A DNA stretch of 64,000 nucleotides, from contig BCHH01000006.1 of the NCBI GenBank assembly GCA_001599595.1, positions 150,846-214,845 on the forward strand, read 5' to 3'. The notes under the pieces are model-generated. The model saw only the letters and a program-made list of their open reading frames with translations. It was not told where the DNA came from and searched no databases. The DNA comes from Beverwykella pulmonaria. Lineage: Eukaryota > Ascomycota > Dothideomycetes > Pleosporales > Melanommataceae. The position numbers were made by a program, and so were the translations under genes. Shown piece after piece: positions 21,776-42,674 of the stretch (its first letter is position 1; the number at the start of each line of letters is the position of its first letter).

Positions 21776-23813
21776 TCAGATGAGCCACATGTCTTCACAT
21801 GCCCCAGGGGAGAAGGCCTCTCCGCGCATGATCCCATGAACATACGCCTCACCTACGAGCTCCCAGAGCGGCCCTCGAGGGCGTATGATTAATGGAAGAT
21901 CTCCTCCACGAGTGAGAACGATCTTGTCTCCGGGCCATGTCAATCCTGGTACCAATGCTAACCGCCCACAAGCTGTAGTGCTCAAGCGGCGGTTGCGCAC
22001 AGTTTTGGTAATTGAGGACCAATCTGCCCTGCCTCGATCCTCGCCACGGCTCTCGCATGCCTTACGCCGCAGTTGCTCTGTTATTCCTAACCCTAAAAGA
22101 CTCAGACGTGGTGTCATTTTGTCAAGGTTAGTTCTTGTTAGTAAACGGAGCTTCCTCATATCATTGTTGTAATTGCAGAATGCGAGCTGGGATTCGGCTT
22201 GGTCGTACAACACATCATGACTTGCGCATATTGTCTTCCAGTAGGCCATGAGTATTGGCTCCTCCGTTTCACGGTATATGGATTCAGATCTTGCGCCTGC
22301 TAGCCGCTCACATTCGTCGAAGTACCGCACTTGACTAAAAACTAGCTCAGAGTTGGCACGTAAATCGAGCGAGCTAGGATAGTGCTCCGGAAGAGGGACG
22401 ACGCGCGAAACAAAGCGAATAGTGTCGACGATATGGCCTTGCAGCATGATCATATCTCCAGTTTTGGAGGTGATGAGGTCATAAAGTGTGCCGCTTGATG
22501 CACGAAAACCCAGGCGAGATCTTCCGGGTGCATTTAAATCGCTATACTCCTTATCAGTTAAAAGTCTGCTGTAGAAGGGAAAGATATATTTGTTGGATAA
22601 ACACGTACTAATTGCCGTAATCTCGTAAGAAATGGTAAGCGCAATTATTAAAGTCACCTGGGATACTGGAATAAGGAAACTTACTAAATGAATTCGCCTC
22701 GTTGTTCTCAAACTCATATCCATTAAGCGTTATGAAAGGAATGAGCTCAGACTGGCTCCAGTCAGGGACCCATGATGGTAAATCTCTCCGTAAAATTCCG
22801 TTCAAAGAACGTGTAGCGGCAAATATGTCCAACTTGCGATCCTGTTCCAGACATTTTAAGGCAAAGGCCTTGTAGAATTCTGTCATGGGCAAAGGATAAT
22901 CCGAATCTAACCCCATTCGTTCTCCATCACCAGATATGCCGACTAGTCCTATGATCTTGTCCTTCTCCTCGGTAGCATGTCGGTGCTGATGTCTGAGAAG
23001 GAGAGAAAGTAACTTGGGCCGCCGGTTCGCAAGGAACGCCCGGCGTGCATTACATTGTTGAAAGGCTTCCCACACATTGGGAGTCCATCCATTGGGGAAT
23101 TGTTGGATGCATCGCACTCCCATGAGGAAGTCATCCCAGTCCACAGTAGAATACCCGCACATCACAATCGCCTTGCTGCACACTGCCGCTTCCTGCACTG
23201 TCCAAATGCGAGTGAACCATTCTCGGTTCATGATGTTCTGGAAGTCCTTATAGACTTGCTCGTACTCCCGAGGAAGACCTAGCTGCTCCCATTGTGAGGG
23301 ATGGAGCTTGTGTATGTTGACTGGACAGCCAAGGATCTGGGATGCCCTGACGAGCTTAGGAACGAGCTCAAAAGCCTTTGTAGTCCGATAATCATCTTTG
23401 CCTAACCAAATAACAACCTGCCTACATTCTTGGTATATCCTGGTCATCAGGCCAATTTGAACGAGCTTCTCCTTATCATCTCTCTGATTAATACATATGG
23501 CGTCCACCCATAGAATCCGGGACAGGAAAGGGTACCTCAGGTAAACCAGCGCGGTATGAAGATTCGGCCTCGCCAGAAAAGTGGTGTCCAAGGGGGATGT
23601 CTGATCTGCCGAGTTGCAGGTGATGGCAATCTCACCGCCCGCGCAGCCCCAGCAATATGACAGAGCCTCGTAGTTTACAGTACTTCGATTCAGATCAACT
23701 GTATGAAGCACTGTGCGTATTGGGGCAGAGCCTCGTCCAGGGAGCAGTTCTAGGAGGCGAATCTGCGTTCGCCACGTATCGTTTACTAGCCATCCATATC
23801 TTAGCGTTGACAT
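21776..23813 (-). CDS. HET-domain (heterokaryon incompatibility) protein
   Basis: Two exons on the minus strand with all three HET signatures: YEALSYCWG near residue 50, LWVDAICINQ and IWTVQEAAV. A C-terminal helical region ends DMWLI. HET proteins trigger cell death or growth arrest when unlike fungal cells fuse. The start ATG 23813 (MSTLRYGW) puts the domain near the N-terminus; an open frame runs on to ATG 24107. The intron ends at 22569. Its strong donor GTAAGT at 22684 leaves the frames one base out of phase; donor GTTTGA at 22713 restores phase. So the junction is uncertain, or the gene carries a one-base defect. Splicing decides whether about 280 C-terminal residues are made. Confidence 0.8.
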
Positions 23814-24380
23814 AATGTGTAGGACTGCTGGCAAACACTCAGCCAAAGGAATTGATACAACAATAGAATAGCTCGTAAGAGTAAGAAAGCAGAAAGACAA
23901 AGCAGCTTTGCATTTATCAAGCGAGCCATGATCCCAGTTATATTGGGCAGTAGAGTGTAGTACGATCATCATGAGATACTTCGCTTTTGGTAGCCCAGCT
24001 TCAGCCGCAACAAGAAACCACTCTTTCAACCCACGCCAAGCATGTTCACAGCCTTCGGAGGAAGTGACCATTGATATGCGACGGGCTCCGAGCGCCAAAT
24101 TCTGCATCGCGTGATTTTTTTAGGGTCTGAGAGAACGAGGGATAATTTTGTGAGAAGAGCGGATCGACTCAACGAATGGCCATTCAACGAAAATGCAGGG
24201 TGCCACATTGGAAAGAGTGTAGATCAAAGCCACTGCGAGTAGAGATAAAGGTTTAAATGGTGTCTTATAAAAGATTACGCTCCAGAGAATCTTTAAGTTA
24301 TAGGAAGGGAATCATAGAACAATCGTAATATTCATAACTATTCTATACTATGCCCCCAGAAATCAAATCAATGAAGGCCC
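23814..24380. other. HET upstream region, possible 5' extension
   Basis: From 24107 to 23814 the HET frame stays open for 98 codons without a recognised domain, so it is either 5' UTR or an N-terminal extension. The rest is AT-rich, with no other gene seen. Confidence 0.4.
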
Positions 24381-26282
24381 TCACTCCTTCTTACTCAATC
24401 CCCTCTCCTGTGCTACAATCTGCAGCGCCAAAAATCTCGAATAAATCCTCGCCAACGCGAGACTCCCCCCGAAGAACCACAACCCTGGATGCCCACTGGG
24501 CCTCCACATAGCATTGACCTCGCCCTCCTCGTCCAAGTCCCACACATCTTTACACCGATCAGCCGCCGTATCCCCGAGCACCTTCCTGATCATTGTCCGC
24601 ATGTTATCGAAGCCGGTTGCTAGAACGACGATATCGGCGTCGAGTTTACGCCCATCGGTGAGAACAAGACCGTGCTCTTCGAAACCCTTGATGCCGTCGG
24701 GCGACTGCTCGACTTTTATCTTGCCGTCGATGATGAGCTGCGAGCAGCCCACGTCGATGTAATACCCTCCACCGCGCGTAATGTATTTTCTGTAGATCCC
24801 GCTCCCGTCATAGCCAAAATCGAGCTTGAATCCGGCCTTCTTCAAGCCCTCAATGTTCTCTTTCTCTGCCGCGGCAATCTTTTCTGTCCCGCCTACGTTG
24901 AGCGCGAATTGCACAGGAATGGGCAAACTCTGCCCGTATACATCTGCGTCCTCGATTGGTGGGCCCGTCTCATCATATAGACCCTCGCGTAGCATGAAGA
25001 GACCTTTGTCTGCCTGAATCACGTATGTGCCCCGGCGTTGAAGCATAGTCACATTCGCGCCGGCTTCGTAGTAGTTCTGCGAGATGTCGTGCCCGGAGTT
25101 TCCGGTGCCAACGACGACGACCTTTTTGCTTGTAAGATCCCCAGGTTACGTCGATGCGTCGCGGTGCTGCGACCCGTGGTAGACAGTGCCTTTGAATATG
25201 GACTGACCGGGGAAGGACGGGATTTTGGGCTCGCCGGCGTGGCCCGTGCAAAACACGACCTGGTTGGGGTGTAGCGTCCGAGAGGTACTGTCGCCGCGTT
25301 TGACTGTAACGGTCCACTTCTTATCGAAATCGGAGTAAGTGGTGCTGGTCACGGTAGTCGAGAGCCAGATGTTGAGCTCCATGCACGAAGCGTATGCCTC
25401 GAACCAGTCGCCGAGCTTGTCTTTAGGGGTGAAGAGTGGCCAGTTGGACGGGAACGGCATAAAGGACATGTGTGTGTATTGCACGGGGTCATGGGTTACA
25501 AACGTGCGGTACCGGTGCCGCCAGTTGTCGCCGACGCGGGAGTTCTTGTCAATGATGAGTCAGGAGAGGCCCATGGCTTGGAGGCGGGCGGCTACGTTGA
25601 GGCCGGATTGTCCTATCTCATGTTAGCATTCATCCACTGCAGAGAAGGTAGGCAGATGTACCAGCACCAACAATGAACACAGTTGGCTCCTCATCAATAA
25701 ACTCCTTCAACCTCTCCCTCCGGTCAAGCCAATTCCCCTTCCCCACGCCACCAACCAACGAATTATTCCCCCATGCGGCCTCCTCGCCCCGGCAACCTCC
25801 TCAACGCCCTTCAACTCTTGCAAGCTCGTAGAGATAAAATGTGCTTTCCATGCCCCATCGTCGCCTTGCGCCAATCTCAGAAATCCCTTGCCTTTACCTA
25901 CCTTGGTCTCGAAGTGAAACATGGACTCCACCCATTCGAGGCCGTCGATAGGTTGCTGGATGTTCGGAGCGAACTGGCCAGATTCTTGCAGCTTGAGGTT
26001 CGTGAAGCCGACGTCGATGTTTTGGGCCAGGAAATCGGTCATCTTCTGCACGCCGCGTACTGTGCGGAAATCCCATGTCAGGGCTAGGAAGTCGCGCCAC
26101 CAGCTGTCTGCGTGCACGACGGTGCTAAGACGTGAGGCATCGCTGCTGGCGAGTACGGCGGAAAATTTGTTAAGCCATGTTTGGGCGAGTTCGGCGGGGG
26201 AGGACTTTTCTGTTACGGAGATCTTGACTTCGGGCTTGGAGAAGGTGGGGAGGGTGATATCGTAGGGGTGTCGGGTGAGCAT
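24381..26282 (-). pseudogene. Flavin-containing monooxygenase, three lesions
   Basis: It reads as a fungal FMO of about 600 residues: an N-terminal NTF2-like domain (from MLTRHPYDITLPTF), the FAD motif IVGAGQSGLN split by a 49 bp intron (25661-25613), the substrate region MSFMPFPSNWPLF, the NADPH motif VVVVGTGNSGHDI, a VLATGF block and a normal C-terminus. Three lesions break it: a lost G in a G run (C5 at 25768-25772 on the plus strand) between RRPHGG and NNSLVGG; TGA at 25562-25560 in MGLS*LIID; and TAA at 25148-25146 between HRDAST and PGDLTSKK. None is removed by a plausible intron. Intact members oxidise N, S or carbonyl groups of small molecules. Confidence 0.88.
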
Positions 26283-27134
26283 TTTAGCGATTGAGTGAAG
26301 GGAGCTGAATAGGAGATAATTATTGAGAGAAAGGGAAGGCGGGCAAAGTACCCGGTCTATATACCAACACCACCAGCATACTCGGCCCAATACCACCTCT
26401 CGGACATCGATGTGGATGCATTATGAGTGTCACACGCTACGCAACTCATTGCCAAATCGCCAAATAATGGAGCCACGATAGTAATGAGTGGCCGAGAAAT
26501 GGGGAGCAGTCGGCGCGACATGGCCCGAGTCTTTGCCCCCAGAGTTCACTGTGCAGGTTCGAATCGGTGGCGGCAGGGGAATCGAGCAGCGGACTCTACT
26601 CGGTTCTACTTTTCCAGAGATATCGTGGGGTTTCAAGGCTCCCTGGAGTATACATGTTGCTGATGTTGGGGAAGTCGCAGGTCGGTGGTCGGTGGTTGTC
26701 TGTACGGGGGAGGCCTCACTTTTACAAATCAGCCAAGGGTTTGGATACAAGCATTAGAAACCACGCTCGAAATAAGATGTAATTTTATTTTCGATCCTAT
26801 TGGCGTACTTGCATAACACTTTAGTGGTTTAGAGAAAACCGGAAAGATACTACTAATTTAAGGGCTTTGACAAACTGCTCAAGTTTCCTTCAGTGTGGAT
26901 AGTAACATTGTAGTAGCACTATTCAAAGTAAGAATTTAATTGAAGATTAAGAGTTATGCATCAAGTCATGAGAGCAAAATTGAAAGTACGATTTGGCGGC
27001 CTTTCTTCTACTTACGAGGCCTCTGTGAGGATATGGGATAGCAAGCACATGCAAAGGATAAATCACTCTGCGCTGTCTTTGGGGCTAATAGTGACGTAGC
27101 AGGTTCCAGAGTTTTGGTCCACTAAAGAGTATCC
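26283..27134. other. Intergenic, no gene seen
   Basis: It includes the former FMO promoter and the region beyond the 3' end of the sugar transporter. A GGTTCGAATC sequence at about 26555 resembles a tRNA B box, but no cloverleaf forms around it. Confidence 0.45.
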
Positions 27135-27812
27135 TCAAGGCGACAGAACCTCAATATGAGAGGCATAATCCTTACCGCTATCAACATCCTTTCTTCCAGC
27201 AGTTTGGTTCGCAATACGTGACTCCTCTGCTTCGATAGCTTCCACCGGCCGGGTGCTCGACTTGGCGACCTTATCGCCAATTGCGATTATGGTCTTGTGC
27301 CCAGAGTCGATGTCGAAGTAGGCATCCAAGTCCTCGAACGTACGATTGCTATGAATCATTAATGATAGATTTTCTAAGGGGTTGGTAAGTCTTACGCAGT
27401 CTCCGGATAGAGGAAGTATACGACGAAGATAAAGAGGAGATTGAAGCATGTGAATACTGGTCACGTGTTAGTAACTTTACAAGAACGGGAGGCAGCAGTG
27501 TCAACATACTGATATAGAAGCGATACCCGATATCTCGAATACCGACTGGCGTAAATTGAGTGCAAACGAATCCAAGCAGCCAATTCGTCGCCGTAGCAGC
27601 CGCAGCACCTCGAGTCCTCATGGCGAGAGAATTAACCTCAGCCTGATACACCCATGGGACCATTCCCCAGGTGCAGCCGAAAGCCGCGTAATAGAAGAAC
27701 AAGAACGTGATCGCCACGGCGCCCCATTGCGTGGGTGCAGTGGCTAGGAGTGCGACAGAAATAGCGACCATCAAATAGGCAAAGAACTGGAGACTGGCGC
27801 CGCCCATCATAA
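27135..27812 (-). pseudogene. Sugar transporter, C-terminal half
   Basis: This is the 3' part of the transporter whose 5' part lies at 36274-37475. It begins at MMGGASLQFF on the right edge and runs through FFYYAAFGCTWGMVPW, the conserved QAEVNSLAMRTRG block, an intron starting near 27510, the segment FTCFNLLFIFVVYFLYPETA, a second intron (donor GTAAGA, acceptor ATAG) and NRTFEDLDAYFD to the stop at 27137-27135. PETA with a nearby acidic motif is the usual C-terminal sugar porter signature. Nothing in this half is broken; it lacks residues before TM7-8 only because the insertion at 27811 separates it from them. The AA at 27811-27812 supplies two bases of the Leu codon before MMGG. Confidence 0.93.
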
Positions 27813-29469
27813 TGGAGGGTCTTTTTGCTTCGGCCCCTCAGCGAGGAGCCGGAAGCTGGTTTCATTTGCGCCGTGATAGACATCACGGAGATCAAACGAG
27901 CCCAGCTCACGCAAGAGAGGACCGCTCAAGAGGCCCAAGAACGAAAGGAACAGCAGGAACGCTTCATCGACATGGTTTCCCACGAAATAAGGAATCCGCT
28001 TTCAGCCGTATTGCATCTGGCCGAGGAGGTCAAGGATGTAGCAAGAGAGATTGATGCTCATGCAAACAATCACAGTACTATCAAAGAGCAGATTTCTGAT
28101 ATATTGGACGCGGCCGACACGATTCTTCTTTGTGTCTCGCATCAGAATGTCTTGGTGGATGACATCTTATCTTTTTCGAAGCTTGACTCAATGATGCTTA
28201 CCCTTGTACCCAGAGGCAAGGCTCAATCCCCGATCCTCTCCCTCGCGCAGTCGGCTGACAACGGGATAGAGGTCCGTCCCAAATGGGACTTCTCAAAGGC
28301 GCTCAAGGTCTTTCACTCTGAGTTTAAGGGGAAGGAAATCAAGTTCCACTACGCGATGGATGTCTCATATAACGATCAAGAGGTTGACTACGTGGTCGCG
28401 GACCTTAACAGAATGAAACAAGGTATTTCCTCGCCAGCTGGTACACGTCTCCAAGGACTATTTTGTCAAAGAAAGCCCCGCCGATCATGCGCTTTCGGCA
28501 GCATCCCCCCTTGGATTTCATCCATAATCGAAACTAACGGAAACCAGTCCTAGTGAACCTCATCACGAACGCCATCAAGTTCACATCGAAAAAGAAAGGG
28601 GAGCGGAATATAACAGTCTCCATGGGTGCTTCACCAAACCGCCCTTCGTCGTATCCACCCAACGTAATATTTTTCAGCGACGATGATAACGTGTTCCGGA
28701 TCGACTCAACCATGACCGCTGAATGGGGCAACGGGCCTACACTCTATATCATGGTCGCAGTGAAGGACACGGGGATTGGAATCAGTGCTGAAGGTCAAGA
28801 GAAGTTGTTTGAGCGTTTCCGGTACGTACCAATTGTATAGCATCTAGCATCTGGTAGCGGTACGGTAGGAGGGTGGATTACAAGGTGATATTTTCCAACA
28901 TCGGCAGCACGACTGACCTTTCCGCCGGCAAATACTATGTGCTACGGCAGAACCGAGCTCGAGAGACTGACTTTTCCACACAGGCAAGCTACGCCTAAGA
29001 CCCAGGAGAAATACGGTGGATCTGGACTGGGTTTATTCATATCACGTAAATTTGAGTGTTGTCGGAGCCTTTTAGCATTAAGACTATGCTGATGCAGCAT
29101 GTTAGTATGCCAATTGCACGGTGGAGATATTGGCGTCAGTTCGAAAGAGGGCGAAGGCTCTACTTTTGTAAGCAGGACACTATGTCACGTGGATATGCCA
29201 CTGACTAATCACTCCGTCATATATATATCAGCTGTACATATCTCATACCACACACACATCATCACACACATATACACACACAGACATACAATACACATAT
29301 TCATACTCTCTCCCACACACTCTAGCTTACAACTTTTGGATTCTACTTCAAAGTACGGCGCTCTAATGGTTTTAGCGATGGAGGAAGGCCACCATTTGGC
29401 AGTCGCGCCTCTTCTGAGACGTTAAGGAACTTTGCTACAACTGTTAACACTGTTACCACAAATACCTAG
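27813..29469 (+). pseudogene. Hybrid-type histidine kinase, C-terminal half
   Basis: It starts mid-PAS at WRVFLLRPLSEEPEAGF and continues VIDITEIK, a coiled coil, the H box FIDMVSHEIRNPLSAV (phospho-acceptor His), the N box LVNLITNAIKFT, G1 KDTGIGIS and G2 GGSGLGLFIS. Introns lie near 28422-28547, 28820-28982 and 29050-29106. The frame is interrupted after GEGSTF by a solo LTR (29167-29331) and resumes past it as GFYFKVRR, to a stop at 29467-29469. The usual receiver domain, with its phospho-Asp, is absent; unrelated AT-rich DNA follows. Its N-terminal half lies at 35390-36275. Family role: two-component sensing in stress, light or development. Confidence 0.9.
29167..29331 (+). mobile_element. 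Solo LTR, copy 1, with 5 bp target duplication
   Basis: A 165 bp element begins TGTAAGC and ends GCTTACA, so the termini are inverted and have the TG...CA form of LTRs. ACTTT at 29162-29166 is repeated at 29332-29336. Removing the element and one ACTTT restores the kinase frame, so the empty site is known. The interior shares ATGTCACGTGGA, GCCACTGACTAATCA and CAGCTGTACAT with copy 2, plus an expanded CA-rich tract. No internal retrotransposon region remains, so it arose by LTR-LTR recombination or is a very small element. Confidence 0.93.
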
Positions 29470-31006
29470 TCTAATAGACTAGATATAATAAACTAAGCTA
29501 GGAACCTGCAACAGAGATAAAAGACACTAAAGCTGTCTTACTGTTCCACAAGAAATACCCAAGCATACCTAAACCTGCCCTAAACTAGCTCTAAACTACC
29601 CTCGCGATTTGCTTAAATTTAAGACGGGCGTACTGTCATGGTAACCACGGCGACACCAGTCCAAACGACGGTCCCGAACGACAGTTCTGAACGACGGTCC
29701 TGAACGACAGTCCTGAACGACGGCCATGAACGACGGTTCTAAACGACGGTCCTGAACAACGGTCCTGAACAACGGTCCTGAACAACGGTCCCAGCAAGTA
29801 CTGTACTCTGCAGCACAGTACTTCACACACCTGACATCGCGCACAATACCGACTAATACCCATTGCGCACATCACTGTACTCTGACTCACAGTACACCGA
29901 CGGTGACGACCGTCGGCATAGTACTGTTACTCACAGTACTCTCTGAACAACGACCTCGGCAACTAGCCAACCTAACCTAAAATGCTCAACCAAGCCCCAA
30001 CCGAGCCCGCGCACGAACCAGCCCCCTGATGCACGAACCATGCTAAGTATTTATTCAAACGCGAAGGACCTCTGGTCGAGCTCCTTACGCAATGTCTTGC
30101 ATGATAATTCACCGCACCTGAGATTGTATCTGTAGCTCTCCGATATTTAATTAAGTCTTTATCCTCTGCTACCGATAGGCTCTCGTGACAATTCCACAGC
30201 TTCTGAGCAGCCGAAGAAGTCAGCCATAAGGCGGCTAATAATGTGCTCGTTGGTCCTGGCTCTACTCTCTGAACGACTCGGCCAATATGATACTCCCTTC
30301 CACCTCGGCTGTCAGCCTATGGTGGCGCTGGCATTGTCGTTGCTACACGTTTATTGGTTTTAGGTAGCTTGTCATTGGTTAGCAAGCGAGCCGTGCTCCA
30401 AGCGTCCCGAAATTCGTGGCTCGGATCTACTAGGGTGGCAAATGGCCCTGCATATTGCAGACTTGTTCGTGTCAGAGTCTGGAACACAACTTCCACGTTG
30501 CCGTGCCGGGTAAGTTGAGGGGAAGGAGGGAATGCCCAGTAGTTCTTGCTACTTCCACTTCCTTCCCTAGGCCTAGTGAGTATCTCTGGTCGAATTGGTC
30601 ATGCACTCACCCTCTTGGTGTCATCCATCGTGCCATCCATCTTGTCATCGTGTCATCAACGCGGAAGTCGGAGCTCGTCCGCAAGCAATATACAGCCAAA
30701 TTACGCAAGAGCCCAATCCGAGTATTGACCTCGCGGGAAGTGTGTCACTACCGCACGGGCCAAACGAAGGTAACGAGGGGTCAGAGACGGAAACAAGAGC
30801 TCCACAGAGTTTCACCTCTTCGCAAAAGTGTCTCCTTCCCAGCCTTTCTGCCATACTCTTGGCTACTCTTTCACCACACCACACCAAAAGAGAGGATTGC
30901 TGACCCACCGTGCCCCTCGCGAAACCCCCGGTTCGTATAGCCACTTGACCGCAGCGCATTCAGTTTTGCGACAGTTGCCTTCTTGAAGTGCTCGTCAGGT
31001 ATTATA
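29470..31006. other. Repeat-rich spacer inside the insertion
   Basis: It starts where kinase homology ends. Contents: a perfect hairpin CTAGTCT-AAT-AGACTAG at 29466-29482, AT-rich DNA, a 13 bp minisatellite (29664-29792), several AGTACTGT/ACAGTACT inverted repeats (29798-29940) and CCGACGG...CCGTCGG near 29899-29918. After about 30450 it looks like ordinary upstream DNA of the next gene. If the insert came from a circle cut out of a longer locus, the circle-closing join probably lies here. Confidence 0.5.
29664..29792. repeat. 13 bp minisatellite, about 10 copies
   Basis: Tandem units of consensus AACGACGGTCCTG, with single-base variants such as AACGACAGTTCTG and AACAACGGTCCTG. The last three units carry the AACAAC form, suggesting local expansion. 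The period is not a multiple of three; an apparent minus-strand protein across it is an artefact of the repeat. Confidence 0.9.
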
Positions 31007-32042
31007 ATGGCCAAAACCCATCATCATTCAGACCTTGATCGACCTCACGTGGTTGAGTTGGTCAACGAAGCCATATCTCCACTGGCACCTTTCGCCGCTC
31101 TCATTCTCACGATTATATTGGTCTTCTTCTTCTTTTTCCGCTATTACGTCTTCGAGTCGTTCTTGATTCGGAAACTCTACGGTCAAAAGTACCTTGACCT
31201 CAATGAGGTCAATCGACGAGGCTTTGTCAACCACCATATCGCTGGCACTGCCAAAATCGTCATGTTCATCGTTGGCGCATATCCGTTTATCGACGTCGCT
31301 TTCGGGAGGGCAACCGTGCGAACCCCGTACGCAGGCTCAAAAGTCGTGACTCTGGGTGACGGTATGTTTCATGTTTTAATATTGTTGTCTTGGTTGTCCT
31401 TCTGACCTAATGAGATTCAAGTCCTCCTTGTGCTCAACCAACTCTTCGTCGCCATGTACATTTTTGAGCTTATCTTCCGTGCCAAGCTTTCTCCTATTGC
31501 GATTGCCCACCACGTCGGAGCCATTGTCATAGCGCAGAGCGCAGTTGCTATAAGCCTTAATTGGAAACATGAGCAAGACGCCACCATCGAATTTGTACTT
31601 TGTTTTGTCTGGGGTATGTTTTTCCTCCTTCATTTCCAGCTCCCTATGGGCTGATCATATACACCCCACAGGCGCATTTGATGTCGTTGCCGAATTCTGG
31701 CCACATGTTGCTATTGTCTTGTACCGGATATACCCAACAGACCATCATTTCCTTTGCAGGGTTTTCCGTTTTGCCTGCATCAGCACCTTTGCCGGCACGA
31801 TACTGGAGACGATAACTGTCATGTGGCTCTTTGGTTCGCTATGGCAACGTTGGACTCTGCCTTTCAAGATTGCCACCCCTGTTCTGCACGTGGTCTTCAG
31901 CATGGCTCAGCTTTGGGGAGCAAAGAATTTTCGTAGCATGTGGTTAAGGCAGAAGAGATTGTTGAAAGAGCAAGCGGAGCACGCAGAGAGGGGGCCTAGC
32001 GTTGCACAAGTGACTGAGACTATAGCGAAGACTGAAGGCTAA
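31007..32042 (+). CDS. Multi-pass membrane protein, TLC-like
   Basis: Three exons, 31007-31361, 31422-31613 and 31672-32042, join in phase to 305 residues. Start: ATG 31007 (MAKTHHHSD). About six hydrophobic segments follow a short His-rich N-terminus: LILTIILVFFFFF, IVMFIVGAYPFIDV, VLLVLNQLFVAMYIFELIF, HHVGAIVIAQSAVAI and two more, with a basic C-terminal helix. A HH pair at the start of a membrane helix recalls TRAM-LAG1-CLN8 (TLC) proteins, but I am not sure of the family. This is the only gene inside the permuted insertion with no visible damage. Confidence 0.8.
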
Positions 32043-33262
32043 GGTTAAAAGGACTCAGAATGCTAAGGAATTGAGGACATTCAAGAAGACAAAAACCACC
32101 ACGTGGACATAGGCTATGAACTATCCCAAGTCTCCCTTCTGGAGCCCGGATTTTCACTACCTATCTACTTGCTCGCCATGAGTTATTAGTTTCTTCATTT
32201 GGAAGGAACGCCGCAGGATCGCTCCCCAGTCTGTAATCATATTCTCCTACAGCCCTCGATGCTTGAGTATACTGATCGACACAACGAACGAACATGGTTG
32301 TTATTGTTATTCTCTGTAACACCCAAGCTGGAGAGCCCCAAATTGACGAGGATCTTGCTGTAAGCATGCTAGAACCTGGAGACCTCTTTGAACATAAACG
32401 AATGATGTCAGGCGTCGTGTACTGATAGCTTGGAGGACAACGGGCCCTTGCATAAGAATATGTTGCTAGTGCAATATCAGCGGACGTAGACGGCTATGAT
32501 TAGGCAGTTTGCTTCTCCGCAGCCGCGGCCCGCCGTGTTGAATGAGTTAGTAGACGCATGATCAGTGTTGGTTGGGCTAGCGATTACTACGTTATTTGAG
32601 CGGATACTGGATTTCATAGGGACATGGACAATCTTTCGAACCACTAAAGAAAAACTCTATTTGGAAACAACAGCTACGATTGGTGGTGAATTATTTCCTA
32701 CTCCAGAGAGAGCTGCGAGCAGATAAACATTTGATTTAAATGTCAGCTCACCGTCATGTACATCAATGTATGTGTCACAGAGCTGCTTTTCATTTCGGCG
32801 CGTAGGGGTGGTTCGGCCATGCTGCTCGGTGTTTGCTCCTTGAACATGAGCCAAGTTCCATGGGGTGATAGGGAGATGCGACTGAAGACTGGTTCCCCGG
32901 GACTAATTAAACGTCTGAGGGCTTAGCGATTCTGGATAATTGGCGCTGAATATGGGAACTTTGACTTAAAATGCGAATCCCCAGATTACCCAAAGAAGTA
33001 TCCGTGCGAATGAGTCGAAACTCTGGCCAAACACTAGAAAAGGGACCATTCTGGTTGCGTTTGTGTGTGGCATGAATTGGACCTATCGCGTCAGTGCGTA
33101 TAGAATAACTCCAAATATTGTCGGCGGGAAGGGCTAGGAGATGATGGGCACATTTGAAGATGTGGGAGATTGGAGCTACAGAATTGGTATGCCACAGATT
33201 GCAGACCACAGAATGCAGCCCACATAACAGGACTCCTGGCGTGATCATACATGATGGCTGAT
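32043..33262. other. Intergenic inside the insertion
   Basis: It lies between the TLC-like gene (+) and the F-box relic (-), both ending here. No domain-bearing frame was seen. Minus-strand frames at 32907-33422 partly overlap the end of the F-box relic in the wrong phase. Confidence 0.45.
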
Positions 33263-34759
33263 TCACTCCGGAATCGACCAGTAATGGTCGGAACTGCACG
33301 CAGCTTGAGGAAAATAGCAAAATGGCCCGACAGGACCGTGCTCCTCGTGTTCCACATGGCTCCAGAGGCCATATACAGCGCCGGAGCGAATGCCGCCTGG
33401 TTGTACACCCTCTAACTGCCATTGGTCGGCACCCGCGTAACTGAATGAGTCAGCATTGTAAAGAACAAAGTCGGGGTTGACCTGCCTTATGATAAACCTC
33501 TAGCGCACCAGCTTCCCTCCTGGAACCAGTGACGCTACCCCTCACAAGAATCGAAGGGCGCCCAATAGGACGACCATTGGACGAGCCGCCGAAGTAGAGG
33601 GTAGGCAGGTCTTTACACAAGGGCATTGCTGTGCTTAGCCTACGATCGCTCCGCAGATCTTCATCGTCACTTATTTCTAGCTTCAATCGCATCACATCCC
33701 CGCAAGCTTCCTCATAAGCACCTAGATCCATAGGGTACTCGAGGTGGTTAGCGAAATTATAATGAACAAGTGCCCGGTAATCCAGAAATGCATATGTTGC
33801 GATCCAAGATCCAGTGACGCCTGCCCAGTCATGCTTGAAGCAAGGATCGCGAGGCACCAGATATGGTATACTGCTCCCAAAGCGCTTGGGTAACCGCAAA
33901 CCTATGGTATTGAAAATTCGAAGCATGAGAGATGTGATTGCCTCGAGGACTTGCGAATTTACAGTACCACTTTGATCCTGTTTGAAGGCCCATAGTTCAA
34001 AGCAACGCCGGTAACGGACCAATCGTAGACGAGAGCTCTCGCAGACGCTTTGGCTCGGACGGAATCGCCCTCTCGCTTGGTTGATCCATAGAATATCTAG
34101 TAGAGCTGTCAAATGAATAACTTCTCCCGCGAACGACGGGTACGAAGACCTACGTGGAACTTGCTCGCCCAATCGGGTACAAGCGTCCTACGCCAAAGAT
34201 TTGCGCGGGTGAGTGGGCGGGTGGAGTCGGCCATGAAATGCAGAGGTAGGCTTGCAGAATCCAGGTCTCGATGATAGTCGTGAACTATCCTTTCGGGGCG
34301 TGGCGCAATCCGGAAGAGGTGTTGGAGGAAGTCAACATTGAGCGAGGTGTGATGGTCCCGACCAATGGCGGTGGAATAGGAAGCTGTTTCAAGGATGTTG
34401 AGGAGCGTGATGACGACGTTTTCGGGGCCTGCGAGGGCTCGCGTGTCGCCATGGCAAATTGCATTGAGCGCGGCATAGTGACGCTTGAGTTGGCTGTGCC
34501 AATCCCATGCAGACTCACGCGACTGGTTTGCAGCTTGAGCTGTGGGCTGAAGGAGCTCCCAGGCTACTTTGGGATTATTGAAGACGTGCAGAAACGCAGA
34601 CTTCCACAAGAGTTGGTTGCTGGGGCAGATGAAGGCGTAGGCGCCGCGAGAGGTCCTCCCAAAGCGAGTAATGTCCTGGGGCCTGAGGTAAGACAGGACG
34701 AGGTCCAAGATCTCAGGGCTAAGCTCGGTGATTGTGGCCATGGGGCTGGCGTGGGCCAC
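33263..34759 (-). pseudogene. F-box protein gene, broken
   Basis: An N-terminal F-box (ITELSPEILDLVLSYLRPQD) is followed by the conserved tail of a fungal F-box family: VPDWASKFH, ARALVYDW, NYGP, AITSLMLRIFNTIG, SIPYLVPRD, WAGVTGSWIATYAFLDYRAL, SSNGRPIGRPS, ADQWQLEGVQPGGIRSG and HGPVGPFCYFP, ending at 33265-33263. Intron 1 is 34153-34097. Lesions: a one-base loss near 33981-33990 between NYGP and FKQDQSG; a second frame change near 33535 before SLVPGG; and a TAG in LVR*RFIIR where Trp fits. Intact members are SCF ubiquitin-ligase adaptors. The damage is inside the inserted segment, so decay may predate or follow insertion. Confidence 0.82.
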
Positions 34760-35389
34760 TTGGTGAAAGGCGTTTGGAGCAGCCCTGGAGACAAGACGAT
34801 GATAATGGACATGTGAGGCTAACAGTGGCAGGGAACAGAACGAAGGGATGGATCAGAAGTAAACAGGCTTGATTCATCAGAGTTGAGACGAATCCTTGAG
34901 GATGCTCAGAGGATTCGGAGAAACTATATATGTGATGTGTCACGTGACCTGCAGACACACGGCCCGATAGGCCTCCGAAGGGCCTCCGCAGGAGGTCCGC
35001 CGGGAAACAGAAGTATCCCTCACAGGACACGTGCCTGCGGTTGGGGATGGCTGGATTCGGTACGGTCGCGGCTTGGCAGTAGTGCGATGGCTGGCCCCGA
35101 GCCGATTGGGGGCCACGGGAGCCCGATGGATGAAGCGAACCGGAAGTGTGTGACATTCGCAGGCGGCGACCGGTGCCGGCGCGTTGGACATGCTTTTGCG
35201 CCGTCTGCCAGGGCCCCCACGCGCACGCCTCCCAGTAACTACTCTCGGTGCGCGCTGGGCCCGCCTCTACATGCACTGCGCCTCGCTCGCATTAGCCCGC
35301 ATGACGTCGGGCTCTGTTTCTCGCAGCCCTCACCCTCTTAACCACTCCATGGCAGCTGGCGGCGCTGCAGCGCTCTCCCCCGAGCCGCC
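34760..35389. promoter_or_regulatory. F-box/kinase divergent promoter region
   Basis: This 630 bp stretch separates the F-box start (-) from the kinase start (+). It is GC-rich near the kinase start and has a palindromic GTCACGTGAC at about 34939. The kinase ATG sits in a strong GCCGCCATGG context. Confidence 0.5.
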
Positions 35390-36275
35390 ATGGAGAACCT
35401 CGACAGATTGACCGCCACGGGCCTACCCATCTTTGACCTCAACTCGGAAAACCTGGACTGCAAGGACTTCTCGCAGACGCCGCTGGGGCCTCGCGAAAAG
35501 TGGCCGTCGCTCAAATGCCTCGTCGCATCGTGCGTCTTGCCCCACTGCGCCGCCATCTTCTGGGGAAATGACCTTTGCATCATCCACAATCTTGCTTGGG
35601 GGAAGGCGACTGGAAATCTCGACGGCCAGGGCGCGCGCGCCTACGATAGTTACTCGGAGAATGCACTCAGCTCACTGAGGTCTGCGGTCCGTGGCCGCAC
35701 CGTCAAGGTAGGTAAGCGCCGTCGGTCCCATTCGTATGTCTGCTGCCTCAAGCTCATGGCCCTCCCGATTGCCGCTTCTTCCTAGAGAACACCTTGGACC
35801 TGGCACTGATGCTGCCGTCCTGCTGAGCACTGTTCTAGATGATGAGGGGGTTCGCCAGGGCGTCTATGCACAGATGCTTTACACGCCAGTCGTTGACAAA
35901 GAATCACCTCTTGCTGGCCTTGAGTCACGTCTACGCGATCATCCCGTCAGGCAGACCAAGGAAGAAGGCTCCCAGCAGACAAGAGGTAATACCCAGGTTG
36001 ATGCTAAGTAGACTCAACTGTTCCAGCGATTCGCCGAGCTCTTGCCCAACGGCCTGGCAATCCTTGACAGTGACGCTGAAGCTGTCTTCGTCAACGATGG
36101 GTTTTTCAAGCTTACGACGAATCGGACCTCCCAAGAATTCCGCGCCTGGCCCGAGAGCATCCATCCCAAGGATTATGAACGCGTCATGGACGTCTATCGC
36201 ACGGCCTTTTCCTCGCGTCATGAGCTACGCGTCGAGTTTCGATGTACCGGCAGCACCTCAATCGATGATGAGGAA
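35390..36275 (+). pseudogene. Hybrid-type histidine kinase, N-terminal half
   Basis: It starts MENLDRLTATGLPIFDL with the family-typical SQTPLGPREKWPS and IFWGNDLCIIHN (first PAS-like sensor), then an intron after GRTVK (about 35709-35800), a divergent linker (GPGTDAAVLLSTVLDDEG), and a second PAS that begins RFAELLPNGLAILDSDAEAV and reads through SIHPKDYERVMDVYR to STSIDDEE at 36275. The exact splice sites around 35980-36020 do not join cleanly by eye and may be damaged. The next base in the window belongs to the sugar transporter. The remainder of the kinase is at 27813-29469. Alone this half can make no kinase. Confidence 0.9.
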
Positions 36276-37475
36276 GAGTGCGTCTTCCGAATCGCTCGAT
36301 CATCCAGAAGCAGAGCCCCGAGGAAATAGCGTAAGAGGTTGCGTTGCAGCCAGTCAGAATGCGGGCCATGAGCTCGGACATGCCGATGCTTTGTTCGAGA
36401 ATGATTGGAAACTGTCCTAGTGATCAGAAAGGTTCAATGGGGAGGGCTTGAGGCGTACGTAGTAATTCAGCGCGTTGATGCCTCCAAATTACTGCATGAA
36501 CTGCGTTCCACAACCAAGCAGCAGGCGCTTGAGATGCCCAGACCTGTCTTTGCAAAGGATGACTTCCTTGAATGAGATCTGCGACTGCCGCTCCAATTCG
36601 ATGGATCCGGAGATAGACATGAGCTCCTTCATAACAATTGGGTCGTCGAGGCCAAGACCATTGCCTAGGTAGCGTCGTAGTGCCTCATGTGCCTCATCAG
36701 TGCGGTCGTGCATGAGGAGCCACCTAGGCGATTCTGGAGTGAAGAATAATAGGGTCACCTTGGCTATACATGGAACCAACTGATGTCTTCGTTAGCGGGT
36801 TGTCAGTTTTACATGGAAAGTGCCCTTGCCTGCAAAGCCATCGGCAATCGCCACTGAATACCGGTGTCCGTGAAGGAAGTTAGGAGAGTGAGCCATGATC
36901 CCAGCATATAGAAGATGACGTTGTAAAGAACGACGATGACGGAGAGCTTTCCTCGCCGCTCACCTCGGACACTCTCTGCCTGGTACACACCGACTGTATT
37001 GCTGACCATGCCTTGACTCTATCAACAAGGTATTCGGGAGTTATCGTAACGGGAGACTCACCATTTCCAAATCCATTGATCACTCGTCCCAAGATGAGCA
37101 TGGGAAAGTTGACAACAGCGAACTGCAGAATGGCGCCCAAGGCACTGACAGCAGCTGCAGCCCATAGAGTCTTCTTCCGTCCTAAGCGGTCTCCGAAGAG
37201 AGCAGCTATGAGACAGCCGCCGAGATTGCCGAGGGAGAAGCAACTGGCTGTACTGCCTTGGATATCGGCGTGTTTGGTTTGGGGAAAGGTGTTGATGAAG
37301 TCAGAGCTGATCAAGATGCCGCTGGTAATACCCTATTGGACAATTAGGTTAGATGGGTCGAGATTAACGTTTGCAGACACCGTACCTGGTCGTATCCGTA
37401 CCACGCCTGTCCTGCAGAGTTTGCAGCCGTCAGAACGACTTCCAATGCATATCCGTTCAGGTTGCCGACGACCAT
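36274..37475 (-). pseudogene. Sugar transporter, N-terminal half
   Basis: Five exons on the minus strand: 37475-37386, 37332-37062, 37011-36830, 36779-36459 and 36411-36276. Motifs: YGYDQGITSGIL in TM1, GDRLGRKKT and GRVINGFGNG, YQAESVRGERRG, FTPESPRWLL, the loop block ALNYYFPIILEQSIG and WMIERFGRRTL at the insertion edge. The intron at 36829-36780 uses a GC-AG pair (CAG|GCAAGG). Besides truncation there is one nonsense codon, TAA 36491-36489, where the family has Gln (FMQ*FGG), a CAA-to-TAA change. The C-terminal half is at 27135-27812. Intact homologues are plasma-membrane hexose or quinate-like porters. Confidence 0.93.
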
Positions 37476-38190
37476 GGCTGCAGATCGTCAAAATTATCCT
37501 TCTTGAGGTAGGAATGATGGAGATGGCCCGTTGAATGCGGGTCTCTCGTGATTATATATGCTTTTGGCATGGCACGGGCCGAGCATCTGCTAAGCTAGGG
37601 ATGAGGCCCTCTAGGAAAACACATGGCAATGGAGGTTCGAACCGCCTAGCTGGATCCGGGGTGTGTGGTGAGCCCGCCATGCTGTTCCAGGGGTAGTATG
37701 GGGAAGCCATGCGAGCCCCGGAATGAAATGCTCTGCTATCCGGGTCATGCTGAAACTGGGACGATGGAACTACTGGGAGTGAGGCGCGGGAATAAAGTCC
37801 TTTGGAAGGTATGCTGCTAGAGGTTGGAGGCCACATTCGGCCAGACATGGCGCGAGCCCAGCTTTCCTCCGAGTGCCCCGAGTGTGGGGACTCCACTACC
37901 AACCCCACACTTCACTAGTGTGCTAGGATCTCCGTTCTTGGACCGACCCAACAAGATGACGTACACCACCAGACGATGCGGTAAACGCTTTCTATCGTGT
38001 GCCGCGCTCCCTGTCCCTGAATCATGTCGGTGTTAATAGACCACCCGCCCTCGCATTCGGCCCATGTCGCGGCGGCATCCACTACACCACGATCGATCCC
38101 CTCAGTCTAGAGGGCACGCGACGCCGGAACGAAAGCTTGAAAGCCTCGGGCCATGTAGATGTCACCCCAGTTGATTACTTTGAAAACCAA
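37476..38190. other. Divergent region, transporter and Zn2Cys6 relic
   Basis: It separates the dead transporter (-) from the dead Zn2Cys6 regulator (+), so it once held both promoters. No gene is seen. Minus-strand frame 37552-37908 has no recognisable content. Confidence 0.5.
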
Positions 38191-40561: not shown

Positions 40562-42674
40562 CCGTGTCCGTGCGCGTGACGCCCGGATTCGCGTGACGCC
40601 CCATCAACCAAAAACTACCCCTATACTGCGACGATCGCAACACCACCATTATGGCTCCTATTGACGATGCAATTGCTGCGATACAGTCGCTGAAGCCCGG
40701 GGAATCTTACTCCTACACAAAAATGGCTGAAAAGTTTGGTGTTGATCGATCAACGCTATCGCGGAGGCACAAGCAGGTTCAAGCACCACACGCCACCAAG
40801 ATTATCAACCAACAGAAGCTTAACCCACAACAAGAGCAGGAGCTTGTCAAGTATATAGAAGGACTCACAGCACGTCACTTACCACCTACGAGAGAGATGA
40901 TACGGAATTTCGCATCGACAATAGCGAAGGAGCCAGTGAGCGAGAGCTGGGTAACCCGCTTTATCAACCGACACAAGATCCACCTCATCTCTCAATGGGC
41001 GACGGGTATGGACGCTAATCGCCACAACGCTGATTCTGGTTATAAGTACAAGCTGTACTTTGACCTGATGCAGTACAAAATCTCTGAGTACAACATTGAC
41101 GCTCGTCACACATACAATATGGATGAGAAGGGCTTCTTAATTGGCATCACTGGCAGGTCAAAACGGATCTTCAGCAGGCGGATGTGGGAGAAAAAGGAGG
41201 TTAGGGCATCACTTCAAGATGGCAACCGCGAGTGGATTACCCTTCTAGCGTGTGTGTGCGCGGATGGATCAGCGCTGCCGCCAAGCCTCATCTATCAAGC
41301 TGCCAATAAAGCTATACAATCAACCTGGGTCGATGCTATTGAAGCAAGAAAACATTCAGTATTTGTCACCTCATCGCCCTCTGGCTGGACAAATAATGAT
41401 ATAGGACTTGCTTGGCTTGAGCAGGTGTTTGATCGCTACACCAAGAAGAAAGCTTGACAAAGTTACCGACTGCTTATTGTTGATGGCCACGGCTCGCATC
41501 TAACAATGGATTTTATTGACTATTGCGACCGTAACAAGATACTCCTGGCTATATATCCTCCTCATTCAACCCACACGCTTCAGCCGCTTGATGTAGTTTG
41601 CTTCAAGCCTCTGTCAACTGCGTACTCTACTGAGCTATCAACACATCTTCACCGAAGCTAGGGACTACTCTCTATTAAGAAGGGTGACTTCTTCCCTCTA
41701 TTCTGGAAGGCCTGGGTGAGCAGCTTTACTAAGGTGACAATACTCAACTCCTTCAAAGCAACGGGTATAGCACCTCTTAACCCTGACATTATACTTAATC
41801 GCTTTACCACCAACGCCTTAGAAGAGCAGGATTCACGTGAGAGCTCTACGTCAGTACTTAGTGGAGAGGATTGGCGCAAAATGGAGAGGCTTGTACGGTC
41901 TGCAGTGAAGGATCAGAGCAGTAAGGACACGCAGAAGCTCCGCCGCTCACTCCACCATATCTCAGTTCAAAATGAGCTACTTCACCTTGAGATTGATGGG
42001 CTCCGAGAGGCTCTATTATTCAAGAAGAAGCACAATAAGAAGGGCAAGCCTCTTGACCTTCAACAGCGCAAGGAGTACCATGGTGGCGCTGTGTTCTGGT
42101 CACCAAGGAAGGTGAGGGAAGCTCGCCATCGTGAGGCAGTGAAGGAGCGTGATAAGAAGGAGCAGCAGCTTCAAAAAGCTGAGACAGCTGAGTTGAAGAA
42201 GGCAGCTAAGCTATACAAGGAGAAAATTGCAGAGGAGAAGCGTGTGGCGAAGGCTAAAGCAGCGAAGGTCAAGGAGAAAGAGAAGGCTGAGAAGGCAGCA
42301 GATCGCGCCCGTCAGAAGGAGGCTCGCGACGCAGCAAAAGCTCTACAATTATCCCAAAAGGGTAAGAGGAAAGCATCACAGCCACCTACACAGAGCAACA
42401 AGCGTCAGAAACGTGTGGTTGATGCTATGGTTGCTGGGGAGGCCTCAGGTGCCCCATCACCTCCCCCATCCGTCACCACGCGCCGCGGCCGCAACGTCAA
42501 GCTTCCAAGTAAATACAAGTAGCACAGGTTGATCGCAAGCATCAATATAGTACTCCACCACAAAATCTCGTGATATTTGCAGTTGAGTGTGGCTCAATAG
42601 CCTCATTTTGGAGGGACCTGCTATGGTGTTGGCGGGGCGTCACGCGAATCCGGGCGTCACGCGCACGGACACGG
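40562..42674 (+). mobile_element. Pogo/Fot1-type DNA transposon, full length
   Basis: Perfect 41 bp terminal inverted repeats occupy 40562-40602 and 42634-42674, flanked on both sides by the TA target duplication (40560-40561 and 42675-42676). Each TIR contains GCGTGACGCCC twice as a direct repeat, the likely transposase-binding subsites. The element is 2113 bp with one transposase gene. Confidence 0.96.
40651..42522 (+). pseudogene. Pogo/Fot1 transposase, two stop codons
   Basis: A single frame of 624 codons. It has an N-terminal Psq-type helix-turn-helix (about 5-45), a CENP-B-type second DNA-binding domain (about 55-115), the DDE catalytic domain with Asp in YNMDEKG (158), IVDGHGSH (278) and QPLDVVCF (313), and a long Lys/Ala/Glu-rich coiled coil before a basic tail. 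Stops: TGA 41456-41458 (KKKA*QSYR) and TAG 41658-41660 (HLHRS*GLLS, where Gln fits). The rest is open. With intact TIRs this copy could be mobilised only by transposase from elsewhere. Confidence 0.93.

Follow-up and report, generated by a model that had tools for sequence, protein, structure and literature searches.

A sugar transporter gene of Beverwykella pulmonaria is split by an 8,463-bp block whose genes stand in circularly permuted order. The best explanation is a foreign circular DNA, joined by end joining into the broken transporter, to which we give a probability of roughly 0.78. The window, by which we mean the whole stretch of 64,000 nt that was analysed, covers positions 150846-214845 of contig 6 (2.9 Mb) in an assembly of 45.6 Mb and 31 contigs; coordinates are those of the window unless a contig is named.

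The split transporter and the permuted block

Along the plus strand the order is transporter C-terminal half (27147..27810), kinase C-terminal half (27811..29424), cargo, kinase N-terminal half (35390..36273), and transporter N-terminal half (36274..37475). The transporter halves lie on the minus strand and both kinase halves on the plus strand, and the right end of the block (27811..36273) reads into its left end. The segment is permuted circularly with one gene split over both of its ends, which is the arrangement expected of an integrated circle. A sequence-only reading had described such an order around a split transporter, and this is borne out to the base.

The junction letters are CAT-AA-TGG and GAGG-AA-GAG. 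Since AA is common to both, the 8,463 bp can be written as 27811-36273 or with a shift of at most 2 bp, up to 27813-36275. The breakpoints lie outside repeats and within the 0-3 shared nucleotides that characterize integrated extrachromosomal circles. Both junctions can be explained by one exchange at the common AA or by simple end joining; by our own estimate, chance alone gives two or more shared bases in about one of six joins, and the AA therefore proves nothing about its own role. Apart from these two letters, the ends of the block possess no element ends, target duplication or terminal repeats. Among 20 of the 34 direct repeat families and 25 of the 27 inverted pairs, none joins both ends of the block, and of the direct repeats listed for 26500-37500, leaving aside a 13-bp tandem array, none is longer than 31 nt (71% identity).

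Compared with the genome, the left junction matches itself and a kinase gene on contig 14, and nothing else. The right junction has no genome match among the matches listed, which are mostly copies of a 213-bp element 1.2 kb away. No second copy of the block occurs among the matches listed, beyond repeats and the kinase and F-box genes of contig 14, and nothing else in the genome matches the stretch 30192-33460.

The interrupted gene encodes a sugar transporter (PF00083). Its C-terminal half, with three inferred exons, is 96% identical to the Pleomassaria siparia protein over 100 residues; the N-terminal half, with inferred exons and short introns, is 91.6% identical to that of the same species and carries one in-frame stop (36489-36491). 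Twenty other genome matches to the C-terminal half are only 26-44% identical, and no further copy of the transporter was found. Near the split gene, at 40597-41454, an ORF encodes a Tc5 DNA-binding domain and a DDE_1 transposase domain. A HET-domain (heterokaryon incompatibility) protein is encoded at 22611-24119, adjoining an FMO-like gene (24384-25145).

Both genes had been predicted to close in frame, RRTL to MMGG in the transporter and DDEE to WRVFLL in the kinase, and both do. One transporter half ends in ERFGRRTL and the other starts with MMGGASLQ, while the P. siparia transporter reads ERFGRRTLMMGGASLQ across the join. At the protein level the halves meet without loss or doubling of a residue in 34 of the 34 homologues compared (the best 34 of 120; in one, P0030, the gap is extrapolated over 11 unaligned residues). 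Relative to its relatives the target gene has thus been opened without loss at the protein level, as is typical of an integrated circle.

The kinase, named HHK12p in several relatives, has an N-terminal half ending in CTGSTSIDDEE and a C-terminal half starting with WRVFLL; the kinase of Clohesyomyces aquaticus reads CTGSTSIEDEEWRLFLL across this join. The gap is 0 in the nearest relatives (C. aquaticus, Lindgomyces, and Zopfia) and, by eye, also in the contig-14 copy. Over 120 homologues it is 0 in 44 and different in 76, of which 74 fall between -5 and +8 and the remaining two are outliers at -75 and -13, because the linker between the PAS and kinase domains varies in length.

The C-terminal half contains HisKA and HATPase_c domains. 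Its 3′-end, including the receiver domain, is missing, the gene stopping at 29424 against the 3′ fragment of an LTR-type repeat, and the half is further broken by a 165-bp element. In the N-terminal half, a stop at 36009-36011 lies in frame and replaces a glutamine of the relatives. The inferred introns are retained, indicating that DNA was moved and not cDNA.

Affinities of the inserted genes

The closest other kinase in the genome lies on contig 14. It is 76-81% identical to the inserted one over two pieces (the next best match reaches 37-39%) and adjoins an F-box gene, the two being divergently arranged as they are in the block. A tree of 43 rows, comprising 41 of 120 homologues and both genome copies, places the inserted kinase as sister to C. 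aquaticus (100/100), with Lindgomyces joining them in one clade (100/99), and the contig-14 kinase as sister to P. siparia (99/98), with Melanomma in the enclosing clade (100/100). All of these are Pleosporales: Clohesyomyces and Lindgomyces belong to the Lindgomycetaceae, Pleomassaria to the Pleomassariaceae, and Melanomma to the Melanommataceae. On a 17-row tree, a single clade of the inserted kinase and the host lineage is rejected (p-AU 9.5e-8), as is a sister relationship of the inserted and contig-14 kinases (p-AU 1e-57). The phylogeny of the kinase is in supported conflict with that of the host, which is the mark of horizontal transfer.

The halves of each gene had been taken as parts of one gene and not of different paralogues, and the separate analyses agree. 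With 21 homologues, the kinase N-terminal half is sister to Clohesyomyces (100/100), its deeper place being without support, and the C-terminal half is sister to Clohesyomyces (100/97) and groups with Lindgomyces (100/98); the identities to Clohesyomyces are 85.4% and 85.2%. In the same sets the contig-14 copy stands with Pleomassaria (N-terminal half 99/95, C-terminal half 88/84). The two transporter halves have one and the same Pleomassaria protein as their closest match: in trees of 15 of 120 homologues the N-terminal half is sister to Pleomassaria (100/99), and the C-terminal half, nearest to Pleomassaria, has no resolved place.

On this evidence at least the kinase arrived horizontally, the donor apparently being a fungus of a different family. 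A donor of or near the Lindgomycetaceae is indicated by one gene, the kinase. The host would be Pleomassaria-like, a placement drawn from two genes, the transporter and the contig-14 kinase, of which the C-terminal halves support it more weakly than the N-terminal halves. Our literature search found no paper joining Pleomassaria siparia, Clohesyomyces, and horizontal transfer.

The cargo includes an F-box protein gene (33296..34747, minus strand), divergent from the kinase as on contig 14. Relative to the copy on that contig, its reading frame is shifted near 33986 and again near 33535, and a stop occurs near 33501. The homology shared with the contig-14 locus extends inward to about 29424 from the left and to about 33296 from the right. 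Comparison of the block with this locus did not disclose the closing junction of the circle itself, which should lie within 29425-33295.

Within that interval is an open TLC-domain-like membrane protein gene (31007..32042, plus strand; three inferred exons), named from its homologues; no Pfam family reaches the cut-off, and no other copy was found in the genome. Among the best 120 of 495 homologues the nearest are those of Paraphaeosphaeria and Lophiostoma (75-76%), Lindgomyces reaches 60%, and there is no named Clohesyomyces protein. In a tree of 25 of these 120, no supported set holds the gene, nor is it grouped with Lindgomyces. The TLC-like and kinase genes are found on sequence records of unequal size in 12 of the 12 species listed for both, a comparison that carries little weight for Boeremia, whose strain identity is unsure, and for Glonium, whose contigs measure about 20 kb, and that omits Paraphoma and Paraphaeosphaeria sporulosa, whose two matches seem to come from different assemblies. 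This suggests that the TLC-like gene is not a usual neighbour of the kinase. It may already have stood next to the kinase in the donor, two pieces may have been combined in the circle, or the gene may be a later arrival. As it does not have a Lindgomycetaceous look, the circle may be composite, its two loci perhaps being the F-box/kinase locus and the TLC-gene locus.

Three repeat families of the genome are present in the block, two of them as whole elements with clean 5-bp duplications. The 165-bp element inside the kinase (29167..29331, plus strand) has the inverted ends TGTAAGC...GCTTACA and the duplication ACTTT. The 213-bp element between the F-box gene and the kinase (34812..35024, plus strand) has the inverted ends TGTGAGG...CCTCACA and the duplication GGACA. 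A copy on contig 20 matches the latter at 100% identity and one on contig 4 at 99.5%; this element has at least 41 other matching pieces and looks recently mobile in this genome. The third is the multi-copy 3′ fragment of the LTR-type repeat (29420..30190, plus strand; inferred LTR about 29634-30190), within which a 13-bp tandem array occupies 29660-29790. By its dinucleotides (TA/AT 1.68; CA+TG over AC+GT 0.76) this fragment alone among the pieces measured looks RIP-like by the customary index thresholds. For it and for the 165-bp element alike, the genome contains at least 47 other matching pieces. The genome's own repeats inside the block imply that the block has lived in this genome, unless the same families were present in the donor.

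Proposed course of the insertion and competing explanations

We propose that a donor segment from or near the Lindgomycetaceae, carrying the divergent F-box/histidine-kinase pair, would have entered a Pleomassaria-like ancestor, a single donor presumably supplying the whole block. The DNA would have been circular on entry or circularised afterwards. Opened inside the kinase, the circle would have been ligated, with nothing lost, into the broken transporter gene, presumably in a single event of end joining with 0-2 bp shared, and this joining would have interrupted the transporter. The kinase and F-box copies may then have decayed, and the genome's repeats would have landed in the block. The sequence-only reading had likewise put forward a circle that was opened within the kinase gene and integrated into the transporter, and the gene order together with the exact closure supports this as the simplest account.

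The strongest competitor dispenses with a closed circle: a linear donor fragment would have broken in the kinase and its two pieces would have been ligated at a single break with their order exchanged, or a tandem array would have been inserted and then trimmed. End joining can capture several pieces, which such a scheme fits, and the mixed affinity of the cargo, with its TLC-like gene, suits it as well. However, the kinase ends are complementary to the residue, where separate pieces would often lose bases, and a tandem array could leave duplicated sequence, of which the 31-nt repeat mentioned above is the longest listed candidate besides the 13-bp array. We regard this alternative as unlikely, though it deserves the first place among the competitors.

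The inserted kinase could also be an old paralogue of the host that was circularised and re-inserted with no horizontal transfer, and the second F-box/kinase pair in the genome, in the same divergent order, is what such an origin would draw upon. The two copies are nevertheless not sisters, as the p-AU of 1e-57 attests, and the inserted one falls in the clade of Clohesyomyces and Lindgomyces. Among the best 120 of 5425 matches, each of the genera Pleomassaria, Melanomma, Clohesyomyces, and Lindgomyces is named once, so that paralogy would need several losses; this origin is disfavoured and in our judgement very improbable.

An assembly error, or contamination by DNA of another fungus, has in its favour that the junctions are known here from assembled sequence alone. 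Against this, chance would have had to produce two joins that match to the residue, one for each gene; the block contains three repeat families of the genome, two of them with clean 5-bp duplications, which speaks against contamination; and the contig is 2.9 Mb long, with no N in the window. We hold either artefact to be highly doubtful. Block interchange, in which a circle released by an exchange between a transporter and a kinase gene lying close together was re-inserted nearby on the same chromosome, yields the same two junctions on paper, but the foreign kinase must first sit near the transporter, and with more steps required it is scarcely credible.

Transposon-borne insertion was considered and rejected, the block ends sharing only AA and having neither target duplication nor, among the repeat pairs listed, terminal repeats. 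A Starship origin of the block is likewise unsupported: no DUF3435 captain was found in the 17 ORFs scanned in the block or anywhere in the window, and there are no element ends. The genome has 11 DUF3435 matches, all outside the window. The nearest of these is degraded and lies on the minus strand of contig 6 at 272126-273464, approximately 85 kb to the right of the block and 57 kb to the right of the window. By the rule of captain orientation, an element there would extend toward the window.

Returning to the integrated foreign circle, we think it on balance probable that the block represents natural transfer between families of filamentous fungi, by means of a gene-bearing circle, perhaps of two loci, that was end-joined without transposon machinery.

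Comparison with known systems

The routes by which DNA passes from one filamentous fungus to another are largely an open question, and this case points to circles as one route of gene movement among them. With junctions readable to the base and a donor family indicated, a transposon-free route by way of a circle and end joining becomes directly testable. In cattle, Durkin et al. reportedly described in 2012 how colour-sidedness arose from permuted segments translocated through circular intermediates; that case is said to lie within one species and to involve larger segments than here.

The Starships of fungi are implicated in horizontal transfer between fungi, and a circular intermediate has been proposed for them that, in the portions available of two accounts, had not been shown (PMC12506042, PMC11623301). 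They resemble the present case in these two respects, as far as those portions go, and differ from it in that no captain gene was found in the block here, nor a target duplication or terminal repeats at its ends.

Gene-bearing circles are also described from Magnaporthe oryzae, where a search of 306 genomes gave no circle-mediated translocation in the sections of the paper available, its authors noting limits of the method (Joubert and Krasileva 2022, PMC9694575). The likeness to our case is that of gene-bearing DNA in a filamentous ascomycete; the difference, according to those sections, is that no integrated circle was found there.

In the accessible parts of the fungal literature searched, wine yeast offers the only comparable insertion of a foreign circle. 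The region B circle of Zygosaccharomyces bailii, as presented in the available text of Galeote et al. (2011, PMC3053389), has permuted genes, some divided into two parts, has 2-3 nucleotides in common at four junctions, and leaves its target sites mostly unchanged; it resides in a Saccharomyces host, spans 17 kb, takes eight forms in 28 strains, and has a tested replication origin. To judge from that text it is the closest precedent, being likewise foreign and permuted, with split genes, few shared nucleotides, and mostly intact targets. The present case differs in concerning filamentous Pleosporales and one 8.5-kb insertion in one genome, known from its sequence alone, and in that the insertion lies inside a gene and the kinase and F-box copies it brought have decayed.
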